Source: Nitrospirota bacterium (GTDB lineage Bacteria; Nitrospirota; Thermodesulfovibrionia; Thermodesulfovibrionales; UBA6898). From it: DNA of 61,481 nt. Below are positions 55,264-60,000 of this stretch, one piece after another. Positions within the stretch are counted from its first letter, which is position 1. Each line of letters starts with the position of its first letter. The notes under the pieces are model-generated. The model was not told the origin of the DNA. It made no database searches and worked only from the letters and a program-made list of their open reading frames with translations. The stretch lies in assembly GCA_021811105.1 (NCBI GenBank), contig JAJZPM010000016.1:1-61481 (forward strand), given 5' to 3'. A program made the position numbers and the translations under genes.

Positions 55264-55545
55264 ATGAAAGCCCGAGCCCTAGTGATCCTGTTTGCATTGA
55301 CCGTCTCGATTGTTGCGCCGCTGTCCGTCGCCCCATCTCCAGCCGGCGGCGGAACATTTCTCGTTACGCTGGACGTCTGCGATGCGGCAAACCCGGCAGT
55401 ATCCGCAAACTCCACGATGCCGGGGATTCATGAAAGCCCGTGCATAATAATATCTGCAGTATTTGTCGATTTCACCCGGATTACCTCCCTTATGTTTCAT
55501 CCTCTGTTAATCGCAACACAAGAAGAACACCCTCCGAGAATTTAG
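55264..55545 (+). CDS. Small exported protein, possibly copper-cluster associated
   Basis: 93 residues. Signal peptide (MKARALVILFALTVSIVAPLS), then GGGTFLVTLDVCDAANPAVSANSTMPGIHESPC. Short exported proteins with a LDVCxAxxPAxSxNxxMPxxxExPC pattern occur, from memory, in heavy-metal operons of other anaerobes. The ribosome site is weak. Moderate to low certainty. Confidence 0.45.
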   Translation: MKARALVILFALTVSIVAPLSVAPSPAGGGTFLVTLDVCDAANPAVSANSTMPGIHESPCIIISAVFVDFTRITSLMFHPLLIATQEEHPPRI

Positions 55546-55994
55546 TCCCCTTCATTCCGAAGTCAGCGAGTTGGATTTTCTCCGACCTGGGCGGTTTTTT
55601 ATGCCTGGGCCGGCATGTACTTTATGGACTTTCTCCCCTTATACTCGACTCCGCTTCGGATTATCACCGACAGTTCCGGAGATCTTCCGGAGCGGGGTCC
55701 CCTTTTTTTAACCGAGGTCGGGGAGGGAAAAAACCAGGTTTTCATAATACGATGGTTTCGGAGCGGGCCTTTTGGCACTTGGCTAGACCTCCTTAAAGGA
55801 GGGCATTAAAAGCAGTATTCGAATCCTGATCGGGGCGGAGGCTATGCCTCCGTCCCCTTATGGGAAGTACACCTGCAGCGGATGGTCCTCTTGAGTGTGA
55901 TAGGAGGTACCTGCAGGGGAATTCGCTGGACTGGATGCAGATACAACGAAAAATAAGGGCTTTAAGCCTGATAGAAAAGGGAGAGATTCAAAGA
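55546..55994. other. Gene-free region upstream of the NosL-barrel gene
   Basis: A gap of about 450 bp. It contains a TCCGGA-GATCT-TCCGGA hairpin followed by GGGGTCCCC and seven Ts (55675-55709), a plausible terminator. It also has a long hairpin GGGGCGGAGGC-TAT-GCCTCCGTCCCC (55832-55857) in front of the next transcription unit. Open frames in it lack coding character. Confidence 0.4.
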
Positions 55995-57488
55995 ATGAAA
56001 CTGCTCAAAACAATCACCACATCTTTTGCGGTCTTATCTGTTGTGCTTCAGCTGTTCTGTACGCTGCCCTCATACGCGGGCGGCGCTGCGGACCCCGTTG
56101 AAAATCCCAGACTCTGCAATCAATGCGGGATGGACCGGACCGTTTTCGCCCGCAGCAGAATGCTGATTGTCTATGCTGACGGGACCACCGCGGGAGTCTG
56201 CAGCATCCACTGTGCAGCCATCGAGTTGCGGCAGAACAAAGACAGACAGGTAAAGTCCATAATGGTCGCGGATTACACGACGAAAAAGCTGACGGACGCG
56301 AGGACCGCGACATGGGTGATCGGCGGCAGCAAGGAAGGCGTCATGACCGCTGTCCCAAAATGGGCCTTTGCCACGGAGGAAGAGGCACATCAATTCGTGA
56401 AGGAAAACGGCGGTGAGATAGCGTCTTTCGACCAAGCCATGCAGGCGACTGAAAAGGAACTGGATAAGGGCGCTGGAATGGATCATGCTCACATGGGCCA
56501 CGATATGAGTATGCACATGGGCCCGGGCGCCCAGATGCTCTTCAACCCTGCCTTTGGCGACGATATCTACCATACCCATCCGGCCGGGATGTGGATGGTG
56601 ACATACAAGCTCATGCATATGAACATGAGCGGACTGCGCGCCGGCACATCGGACGTCGACCTGAACAGCGTCGGGTTCAAAAGGGACAAGCCGTATAATT
56701 ACATGATGATACCTACAGATATGACCATGGACATGCACATGTTCATGCTGATGTACGGGATCACCGACCGGCTGACTGTTATGGCAATGGCGAATTATCA
56801 GGTAAACTCCATGGGCATGCTGATGGACATGGGTCCCGGGAAAATGATCACACGAGAGGACCCCATGACCACGCGCGGCTTCAGCGACACGGAACTGAGG
56901 GGGATATACAAGATCAACAAATACCTGGTCGGCAGTCTCGGCATCAGCCTCCCCACCGGCAGCATCGACGAGACGGTAGTAATGATGCGGAAGGAATATC
57001 GGGCCCCTTATGACATGCAGCTCGGATCCGGCACATACGACCTGAAGCCCGCCCTCACATATAATGACCTCAGTGACGACGCGAAGTGGAACTGGGGCGG
57101 CCAGGTCATGTACACCTACCGCATAGGAACAAATGATAACGGTTACAGCCTCGGCGACAACCTCAAGGTGACCGGCTGGCTGCAGCATGCATTCGGCCCC
57201 CTCAGTTCCTGGGTGCGCCTCGCCTTCAACGACACAGGACGTATTCATGGAAAGGACCCCGAAATCGACAAACTTATTCATCCTGTGACGGGGATGGGTG
57301 CGCCGACACCTGACGCAGACGCTGACAACTACGGGGGGCAGCGGCTCGACGGCCTGATAGGAGCCAGTTTTCAGATGGGCTCACTCAGCTTCGGAGTGGA
57401 AGGCGGAGTGCCCATTTATCAATATCTGAACGGCCTGCAGATGAAAACCACGTGGATTATCAATGCCGGTGTACAGGTAATGTTTTAG
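55995..57488 (+). CDS. NosL-like copper-binding domain fused to an outer-membrane barrel
   Basis: 497 residues. Signal peptide (to PSYAGG). NosL-like domain (about 25-155) with RLCNQCGMDR, the copper-site-type motif, VYADGTTAGVCSIHC, DYTTKKLTDARTATWVIGG and FATEEEAHQFVKENGGEIASFDQA. A Met/His-rich linker follows (MDHAHMGHDMSMHMG). The remainder (about 185-497) is a beta-barrel of the phenol-degradation MetA/transporter type, ending in VQVMF, a typical outer-membrane C-terminal aromatic residue. Probably a copper-binding or copper-exporting outer-membrane protein. The ATG of MKLLKTI was chosen because the upstream frame is not signal-like. Confidence 0.8.
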   Translation: MKLLKTITTSFAVLSVVLQLFCTLPSYAGGAADPVENPRLCNQCGMDRTVFARSRMLIVYADGTTAGVCSIHCAAIELRQNKDRQVKSIMVADYTTKKLTDARTATWVIGGSKEGVMTAVPKWAFATEEEAHQFVKENGGEIASFDQAMQATEKELDKGAGMDHAHMGHDMSMHMGPGAQMLFNPAFGDDIYHTHPAGMWMVTYKLMHMNMSGLRAGTSDVDLNSVGFKRDKPYNYMMIPTDMTMDMHMFMLMYGITDRLTVMAMANYQVNSMGMLMDMGPGKMITREDPMTTRGFSDTELRGIYKINKYLVGSLGISLPTGSIDETVVMMRKEYRAPYDMQLGSGTYDLKPALTYNDLSDDAKWNWGGQVMYTYRIGTNDNGYSLGDNLKVTGWLQHAFGPLSSWVRLAFNDTGRIHGKDPEIDKLIHPVTGMGAPTPDADADNYGGQRLDGLIGASFQMGSLSFGVEGGVPIYQYLNGLQMKTTWIINAGVQVMF

Positions 57489-57556: not shown

Positions 57557-58507
57557 ATGGGAACCATAGCGGGAATTTCAACAGCGGGATGTTTACGCCG
57601 GGCATTCGGCGTGGCACTGTTGTGCGTACTATTGGTGCCGGCTTCATCCTGGGCCCACGGATTTGCGGGCCAGAGGTTTTTCCCTACCACGTTTCAGGTC
57701 GACGACCCGTTCATCTCGGATGAGTTTTCGATCCTGATTAACCGTGCAAAGGGCCCGGATGCTAAGACAACGGAAATCGATATCGACTATTCCAAACGCA
57801 TCCTGCCTAACTTCGGGCTGGAATTCCATGAGGCATACCTGCACCTCCGCGCGGACGACGGCAGCTCGGCAAACGGCTGGGACAACCTCGGCATAGGAGC
57901 AAAGTGGCAGTTCCTCACGAACGAACCTCATGAGTTGATCCTTTCTGCCGGCACGGACTTCGACATCGGAGGAACAGGCGCGCACCAGATAGCCGAGTCT
58001 TTTACGACGATTTCGCCTGCGTTATTTTTCGGAAAAGGCTTCGGCGACCTGCCCCAGTCGGTGGGCTTCCTCAGGCCATTTGCGATTACCGGGGTCGTCG
58101 GCCCGAACTTCCCGACCCGGGCCGGCAACGTCTCTGTCAATCCGGAGACTGAAGAAACCGAGATCGAGCGCAACCCCACGACCCTTACCTGGGCATTCAC
58201 CGTGCAGTACAGTCTCATCTACCTTCAGTCTTTTGTAAAGGACATAGGGCTCGGGAACCCTTTTAAGCGCATGGTACTTGTGGTAGAGTTTCCTATGGAG
58301 ACCTGCATGAGCGCGGATTGCAAAGGACAGACCACAGGAACGGTCAACCCGGGAATCGTCTGGGCCGGCAAGTCCGTGCAGCTCGGCATCGCTGCGCAGG
58401 TCCCCGTGAATTCGAATTCAGGGAGTGCCGTCGGGGTCCTGGGTCTGATCCATCTGTATGTCGATGATCTCTTTCCAAAGAGCATCGGCAGGCCGATTTT
58501 CCCGTGA
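57557..58507 (+). CDS. Exported beta-barrel protein of the copper cluster
   Basis: 316 residues. Signal peptide ending PASSWAHG; the mature protein is rich in amphipathic strands (ILPNFGLEFHEAYLHLRADD, LGIGAKWQFL, FRPFAITGVVGPNF). It resembles outer-membrane barrels that accompany CopC/CopD-like genes. Two cysteines in METCMSADCKGQ. Specific function unknown. AGGAGG precedes the ATG; CopC follows 4 bp after the stop. Confidence 0.65.
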   Translation: MGTIAGISTAGCLRRAFGVALLCVLLVPASSWAHGFAGQRFFPTTFQVDDPFISDEFSILINRAKGPDAKTTEIDIDYSKRILPNFGLEFHEAYLHLRADDGSSANGWDNLGIGAKWQFLTNEPHELILSAGTDFDIGGTGAHQIAESFTTISPALFFGKGFGDLPQSVGFLRPFAITGVVGPNFPTRAGNVSVNPETEETEIERNPTTLTWAFTVQYSLIYLQSFVKDIGLGNPFKRMVLVVEFPMETCMSADCKGQTTGTVNPGIVWAGKSVQLGIAAQVPVNSNSGSAVGVLGLIHLYVDDLFPKSIGRPIFP

Positions 58508-58511
58508 GCCT

Positions 58512-58886
58512 ATGAGATCCGCGAATCTCAGGACCGGAATAGCTATCATCTTCTTTGTCCTGCTCTGGGGACTGCCTGAGGCGTTGTGGGCGCACGCGTT
58601 TCCCGACCATTCGGACCCTAAGGTCGGCTCGACGATCTCCTCTCCCCCCGCACAGGTCCGCATCTGGTTCGACGGCGATCTGGAGCCGGCCTTTTCGACG
58701 ATCATGGTCCATAACATGGACGGCAGGATGGTAAGCAAGGGCGACGGTCGGGTAGACCCGTCTGACCCGACTCTTCTTGAGGTGAGTCTGCCCAAGCTGC
58801 CTCCCGGCACGTATCTCGTGATCTGGAACGTCGTGGCAAGGGACGGGCACCGGACGCAGGGACAATACACGTTCACAATCAAATGA
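58512..58886 (+). CDS. copC: CopC-domain periplasmic copper-binding protein
   Basis: 124 residues. Signal peptide ending EALWAHAF, which leaves the copper-ligand histidine at the mature N-terminus. DPKVGSTISSPPAQVRIWFDGDLEP and PGTYLVIWNVVARDGHRTQGQYTFTI are the CopC/YobA fold signatures, with the conserved DGHxxxG motif. The ATG is 4 bp after the preceding stop, so it belongs to the same operon as the barrel gene. Confidence 0.9.
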   Translation: MRSANLRTGIAIIFFVLLWGLPEALWAHAFPDHSDPKVGSTISSPPAQVRIWFDGDLEPAFSTIMVHNMDGRMVSKGDGRVDPSDPTLLEVSLPKLPPGTYLVIWNVVARDGHRTQGQYTFTIK

Positions 58887-58950: not shown

Positions 58951-60000
58951 ATGATCTCCATTCTGCACGTAATCCCCGGATGGTTTGAGCTTCTTTCCCT
59001 GGCATTCTGCATAGGGGTCCTCGTTTGTCGCATCTGGGTAATTCCCCCCCCGCCCGACACCGCTTCCGCCCATGGAGATTGTCTCGCCGACATGTGGCGA
59101 TGGTTCGGTATCGGCGTAGGCGTCATGATCGCCTGTACCACCTCAAATTTATTTGTGCGCGCAGTAGAGATGAGCGGGTCATCCTTTTTTTCGGTTTTCC
59201 CGATACTGCCTGTCGTTCTCTTCCGGACTCACTTCGGCAGGGTCTGGATTATCCGCATTGCTGCCGAAATCCTTTTATTGATTTCGTTGAAGGTCTTCGG
59301 GCAGCGCCGGGATTCGCGCGTATTCCTTGTATTCATGCTCGTCCTGGCAGGCACCGTCGCTGCGACCGAAAGCGCATCGGGACACGCCTCGGATGCAGGC
59401 GACTTCAGCCTTCCCGAAATAACGGACTGGCTTCACCTGCTCGCCACTTCTGTCTGGGGCGGCGGCCTTCTCGTGCTTTCTCTCTTTCTTCTCCCGAAAA
59501 TTGTAAAACCGGATGATAACCGGACAGCGCCCCGGGTCGCCGGGGTTGCCCGCAGATTTTCACTTATCGCAGGGTTCGCGGTCGGAATTGTCGCGATCAC
59601 CGCTATTTACAACGGATTTTCGTATGTCGGGAGTTTCGAGGCGCTCTGGAAATCAACTTTTGGACTTATCGTTATCGCGAAGACCGGCCTATTTCTCTTG
59701 CTCGTCAATTTCGGCGCCTTCAACCGTTACGTCAGCGTTCCTCTTTTACAGGAGTGGGCGGGAACTTCAGCAGAAGGCCGTGGAGTCATCACCCGCATCG
59801 CAATACGCTTTTTCCCCAGGATTCAGCTTGAGGGGAACGGGGGCAAGGTCGCCTCCCGGTTCATGCGCAGCGTAAAAGTCGAGACGGCACTGATTGTGGG
59901 CCTGCTGCTCTGTGCGGCTCTGCTCAGGCATGAGGTCCCTGCGCGCCACCTGCACCATCTGGGTCACGCGGACGGGAAACCGATGCATATGCACCGATAA
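58951..60000 (+). CDS. copD: CopD-family copper-transport membrane protein
   Basis: 349 residues and about 8 membrane helices. EITDWLHLLATSVWGGGLLVLSLFLLP is the CopD signature with conserved His and Trp, followed by RFSLIAGFAVGIVAITAIYN and WKSTFGLIVIAKTGLFLLLVNFGAFNRY. The C-terminus is His/Met-rich (HLHHLGHADGKPMHMHR), fitting copper binding. It pairs with CopC in moving copper across the inner membrane. Confidence 0.88.
   Translation: MISILHVIPGWFELLSLAFCIGVLVCRIWVIPPPPDTASAHGDCLADMWRWFGIGVGVMIACTTSNLFVRAVEMSGSSFFSVFPILPVVLFRTHFGRVWIIRIAAEILLLISLKVFGQRRDSRVFLVFMLVLAGTVAATESASGHASDAGDFSLPEITDWLHLLATSVWGGGLLVLSLFLLPKIVKPDDNRTAPRVAGVARRFSLIAGFAVGIVAITAIYNGFSYVGSFEALWKSTFGLIVIAKTGLFLLLVNFGAFNRYVSVPLLQEWAGTSAEGRGVITRIAIRFFPRIQLEGNGGKVASRFMRSVKVETALIVGLLLCAALLRHEVPARHLHHLGHADGKPMHMHR

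Follow-up and report, generated by a model that had tools for sequence, protein, structure and literature searches.

A NosL Domain Fused to a Methionine-Rich Outer-Membrane Barrel in Nitrospirota: A Candidate Copper-Entry Channel behind a Leader Peptide

Organization of the Locus

The window analyzed here is a 61,481-nucleotide stretch of a contig from a Nitrospirota bacterium. On its forward strand, a leader ORF and a proposed RNA switch precede a gene (55995–57488) that is a single open frame of 497 aa plus stop, according to the ORF reading of the window, and that joins a NosL domain to a predicted outer-membrane barrel. The features are listed in order.

55264..55545, + strand: leader ORF, 93 aa, with an exported-type N-terminus, the motif LDVC (Cys39), and Pro90-Pro91
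55555..55562, + strand: RNA region 1, TTCCGAAG, directly behind the leader stop, complementary to region 2 and proposed as an antiterminator arm
55647..55660, + strand: RNA region 2, GACTCCGCTTCGGA, 5' arm of the terminator and alternative partner of region 1
55686..55709, + strand: RNA region 3, TCCGGAGCGGGGTC followed by CCC and seven T, 3' arm and tail of the intrinsic terminator
55995..56078, + strand: signal peptide of the fusion protein, with cleavage probable after SYA and a helix at residues 3–26 in the AlphaFold2 (AF2) model
56103..56438, + strand: NosL domain, residues 37–148 (PF05573, 2e-14)
56463..56555, + strand: Met/His-rich linker, residues 157–187, read from the sequence and a low-confidence coil in the model
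56526..56591, + strand: conserved segment ahead of strand 1, residues 178–199, including YHTHPAGM, with many invariant residues in the orthologue alignment
56592..57485, + strand: predicted 12-stranded outer-membrane barrel, residues 200–497 (AF2 model and fold match)
57557..58507, + strand: conserved exported protein, 316 aa, with no Pfam family above cut-off
58458..58886, + strand: CopC (PF04234, 8.6e-21)
58951..60000, + strand: CopD (PF05425, 5.5e-19)

A longer frame from 55860 exists at the fusion gene, but the frame of the closest orthologue opens only at the equivalent of 55995. Comparison with the nearest orthologue (L036) gave a dN/dS of ~0.13 (0.041/0.321). In L036 a split-Soret cytochrome gene lies between the leader and the fusion; relative to it, the window is missing ~810 bp, including most of the split-Soret gene, with the junction near 55761.

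CopC and CopD, noticed beside the fusion in an earlier sequence-only reading of the locus, accompany it in the window and in L045 and are absent beside most fusions, so that the association is not general. In L104 and L114, CopD and the protein encoded at 57557–58507 recur behind the leader. The AF2 model of the latter protein (pLDDT 33) was not used.

A NosL Domain Precedes a Barrel with a Methionine-Rich Face

The N-terminal domain had been called NosL-like on account of its motif CNQCGMD, and both profile and fold comparisons bear this out. The protein scores 54.5 bits against PF05573, with a curated cut-off of 24, and residues 31–155 of the AF2 model match the fold of NosL 7og7 (Z 12.5). 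Within the CxxCGM metal motif (residues 41–47), C41, C44, G45, and M46 are invariant in 12 orthologues. The Met/His-rich linker also has a counterpart in the solved NosL structure 7znq, whose C-terminal stretch at the corresponding place is rich in Met and His. In contrast to known NosL proteins, the domain forms the N-terminal part of a predicted outer-membrane protein in a genome without NosZ; no lipobox was seen when the signal peptide was read, so the lipoprotein anchor of the NosL family is lacking.

Structure prediction likewise favors a barrel as the C-terminal half. In the AF2 model (mean pLDDT 66.6, pTM 0.54), the NosL domain is followed by a 12-stranded barrel, and residues 188–497 match the COG4313 channel 4rl8 at Z 24.6. 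FapF is a further fold match (Z 23.5), and PcoB is found among the matches at Z 12.6 only. Against PF13557, the Pfam family of COG4313 channels, the window protein scores 15–16 bits, under the cut-off of 22, which is passed by the orthologue L012 (27 bits) and the relative L053 (22.9 bits).

Among 14 divergent sequences, Met occupies 9 of the 34 invariant barrel columns, and on strands 1–3 (residues 201–279) all 14 conserved Met residues share a single face. Because aliphatic and aromatic residues are more frequent on the opposite face, the Met face, assigned by strand alternation, is probably the barrel lumen. The Met-rich strands and the attached NosL domain distinguish the fusion barrel from known COG4313 members. 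In the crystal structure of a COG4313 channel, an N-terminal segment folds into the lumen (PMC4493636), on which basis segment 178–199, with its HxH motif, is a possible lumen plug in a part of the model where confidence is low.

Several relatives elaborate on this architecture. L016, L048, L049, and L051 have a long Ser/Gly-rich insert, probably extracellular, in the loop that follows strand 3 of the barrel. In L056 (Methyloglobulus), four tandem proteins of ~900–1070 aa carry the Met-barrel at the C-terminus; in the one that was scanned, it is joined via a His-rich linker to a DUF3570 domain (1.6e-114).

Identity as a TonB-dependent receptor is ruled out, there being no match to a plug or receptor domain at E values up to 1. 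If, as proposed, the fusion protein brings copper through the outer membrane to supply enzymes of the periplasm, it resembles OprC/NosA and CrtA in role, but it has neither their plug nor their TonB-dependent receptor domain and belongs to another barrel family.

The Fusion Recurs in Several Phyla

The same NosL–barrel fusion was found in 13 of 101 genomes (the window's own and its relatives) and in named assemblies of Nitrospirota and Thermodesulfobacteriota; two members carry the label Myxococcota. This recurrence rules out a misjoined pair of genes or a misassembly, a reservation attached to the sequence-only reading. A search of Flavobacteriaceae located the barrel in 20 of 149 genomes, including five copies that are NosL–barrel fusions. 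Fused proteins occupy two separate places in the tree, where the Flavobacteriaceae fusions are nested among unfused Bacteroidota barrels and apparently arose independently; the starred branches force at least four changes. The close relatives L015, L044, and L051 keep the barrel without NosL, a state that probably reflects loss of the domain, and L152, L158, and L159 encode barrel and NosL as separate adjoining genes, a Rosetta-stone arrangement. DNA relatives were also sought on plasmids, with no useful result.

Retention of the barrel after loss of NosL would be expected if the domain were mainly a periplasmic gate or assembly element whose copper handling is incidental. This is very improbable given that fused proteins retain the CxxCGM motif and the NosL core and that NosL is found attached to barrels of this family in two distinct clades.

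A second alternative concerns the cargo: the barrel might carry copper bound to a chelator, a different thiophilic metal, or a small hydrophobic compound, with NosL processing only an accompanying metal. COG4313 channels are otherwise implicated in the uptake of hydrophobic molecules, the copper receptor CrtA imports chelated copper, and relatives are found in diverse settings, for example in clusters for cytochrome c biogenesis on Ruegeria plasmids. Still, this reading has a slim chance, as the most conserved lumen-type residues are Met, typical of Cu(I) sites, and the linkage of barrel and NosL is repeated.

The Leader ORF Belongs to a Widespread Family with a Fixed Spacing

Upstream of 11 of the 13 fused genes among the relatives lies a homologue of the leader ORF. 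A profile of the leader matched 108 places in 65 of the 101 genomes; for 32 of these, a NosL or barrel match follows on the same strand, beginning no more than 3 kb away, and no other near arrangement was found. The family is widespread in the order and unnamed in Pfam and Rfam. A dN/dS of ~0.35 supports its being coding.

From the Cys of LDVC to the Pro-Pro there are 51 residues in 44 of 47 distinct leader sequences. The same spacing is recovered from leaders recruited with just the N-terminal half, and from 12 of 13 of those found via the barrel. Pro-Pro lies two residues from the end in 39 of the 47, as Pro90-Pro91 does in the window. The LDVC Cys is the only invariant Cys; further Cys residues vary, so a CxxC or CxxxC motif is not a family feature.

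These properties invite comparison with CruR and CutF (DUF2946), which sense copper via Cys motifs and Pro-rich ends. The leader shares with them a small size and exported-type N-terminus, a Cys motif, a Pro-Pro near the end, a conserved Cys-to-Pro spacing, and a position upstream of copper-related genes. It differs in having a single invariant Cys instead of CxxC or CxxxC, in its spacing of 51, in being followed by an intrinsic terminator, and in lacking a match to PF11162 (no family was matched by the window leader, and 1 of 13 members matched weakly at 0.0031). In CruR, copper relieves an arrest and expression goes down, whereas in CutF copper delays export and expression goes up; given these opposite signs, the sign of the response at the present leader is not predictable by analogy.

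Other genes headed by the leader family encode split-Soret cytochromes, TonB-dependent receptors, and a thioredoxin-like protein. The receptors include copper-type ones, for which TIGR01778 scores of 706 and 331 bits were obtained (cut-off 472). Split-Soret cytochrome genes are headed more often than obvious copper genes, which means that the signal may be redox or another metal.

A Proposed Terminator/Antiterminator Follows the Leader

Downstream of the leader stop, two hairpins and an intrinsic terminator with strong covariation are common to 28 aligned sequences; these were picked for showing this layout, which is missing behind roughly one in four of the 47 leaders. In these 28, the whole structure is 88.2% paired, compared to 34–50% in slid controls, and contains 76 double-change cells, compared to 28 after shuffling, a value reached in 0 of 500 shuffles. 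The terminator helix is 93% paired. For the proposed antiterminator, formed by regions 1 and 2, 92% of cells are paired (21–61% in slid controls) and 4 pairs show double changes (0.9 when shuffled), so that covariation supports it modestly.

An earlier terminator scan limited to short loops had found a strong hairpin with a T-run behind 13 of 47 leaders and behind 1 after shuffling; it missed the 14-bp terminator of the window and is superseded by the aligned structure. Nothing in Rfam reached the gathering score in the region after the leader: three weak, chance-like matches were returned for the window and one sub-threshold suhB match for L027.

Genomic Context and the Direction of Copper Transport

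The sequence-only reading had proposed copper capture or efflux at the outer membrane. Genomic context bears on this choice in Flavobacteriaceae, where L140, L141, and L142 contain three complete nos operons with the fusion between NosL and NosD, in the order NosZ, membrane protein, NosL, NosL–barrel, NosD, ABC ATPase, membrane protein. NosZ scores 940, 937, and 933 bits in the three (cut-off 625), and NosD 445 and 422 bits in the two operons tested (cut-off 300). L139 has the same nos gene order on a shorter contig. Such a context calls for copper supply. A paper on Kordia lists nosZ-nosL-nosD-nosF-nosY, with the barrel unmentioned.

In the window's genome, by contrast, NosZ is absent. That no nos genes were in view had already been remarked for the window, and a search of the whole genome found no NosZ above cut-off. 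Two weak matches were read from their sequences as a COX2-like protein (cytochrome oxidase subunit II) and a multicopper oxidase–like protein, which suggests that other copper enzymes could be served. Two additional NosL-like loci were observed: G000:C2:43849-44550 (L062), a single ORF with two tandem NosL-like domains, of which the first looks degenerate, and G000:C66:12574-12957 (L061), a separate NosL gene adjoining ABC transporter genes and lacking NosZ.

CopC/CopD and Met/His-rich segments also occur in resistance operons, and the principal alternative to copper entry is efflux or sequestration by a CopB/PcoB counterpart, in which NosL and the linker would gather periplasmic copper and pass it out or hold it. 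The downstream CopC and CopD genes, the Met/His-rich N-terminal stretch ahead of an outer-membrane barrel, as in CopB, the PcoB fold match, and the multicopper oxidase–like protein are all compatible with this model. Membership in CopB/PcoB is ruled out, however, by the lack of any CopB Pfam match at E values up to 1 and a PcoB fold match far weaker than that to COG4313. Moreover, CopC/CopD are not kept beside most fusions, and the Flavobacteriaceae fusions lie in operons that require copper supply. Efflux or sequestration is thus considered rather unlikely.

The unfused barrels provide a second contextual clue. In Flagellimonas, a small ORF ending in Pro-Pro precedes an unfused barrel, which is followed by a PepSY_TM gene, and in L118 a gene similar to PepSY_TM lies downstream of the barrel; PepSY_TM adjoins only these two of the Bacteroidota barrels, and the ORFs before Bacteroidota barrels matched no family. 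The Flagellimonas order resembles that of the Bordetella operon cruR-bfrG-bp2921, whose receptor imports copper (PMC9426467, PMC12914433). Based on the fusions inside nos operons and the stand-alone barrel before PepSY_TM, a role in copper entry is favored over efflux with reasonable, if incomplete, confidence. The leader family heading OprC/NosA-type copper receptors adds to this leaning, so that the capture half of the original suggestion is retained and the efflux half disfavored.

Proposed Model and Implications

Taken together, sequence and context make it fairly likely that the fusion protein is a channel through which copper enters across the outer membrane and that it carries its own copper chaperone in the periplasm. 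In this model the barrel would span the outer membrane and NosL would face the periplasm; copper, probably Cu(I), would move along the Met ladder of the lumen, the HxH plug, and the Met/His-rich linker to NosL. The enzymes that NosL would then supply in the periplasm would be nitrous oxide reductase in Flavobacteriaceae and, in the NosZ-lacking genome of the window, perhaps a multicopper oxidase or cytochrome oxidase (CuA). The leader peptide would set expression and may sense metal during its own synthesis. A ribosome paused at the leader Pro-Pro would cover RNA region 1 and favor the terminator, whereas an unpaused ribosome would allow the antiterminator to form.

A more general proposal, held tentatively and at slightly below an even chance, is that Met-lined COG4313 barrels are TonB-independent outer-membrane copper importers that were twice joined to NosL, and that the Nitrospirota members are controlled, via a terminator/antiterminator, by previously undescribed ruler-like leaders that sense metal or redox state. 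The component parts are already known; in open-licence papers, neither the fusion nor the Met-lined barrel subfamily nor the Nitrospirota leader family was found described.

Little is known of how ionic copper gets through the outer membrane where no TonB-dependent receptor takes part. A conserved barrel that carries its own chaperone and occurs both in nos operons and in NosZ-lacking Nitrospirota offers a directly testable route by which copper could reach N2O reduction and other copper enzymes. Through its constant 51-residue spacing and covarying RNA switch, the leader would add a further phylum, and intrinsic termination as a further mode, to metal sensing by nascent chains.
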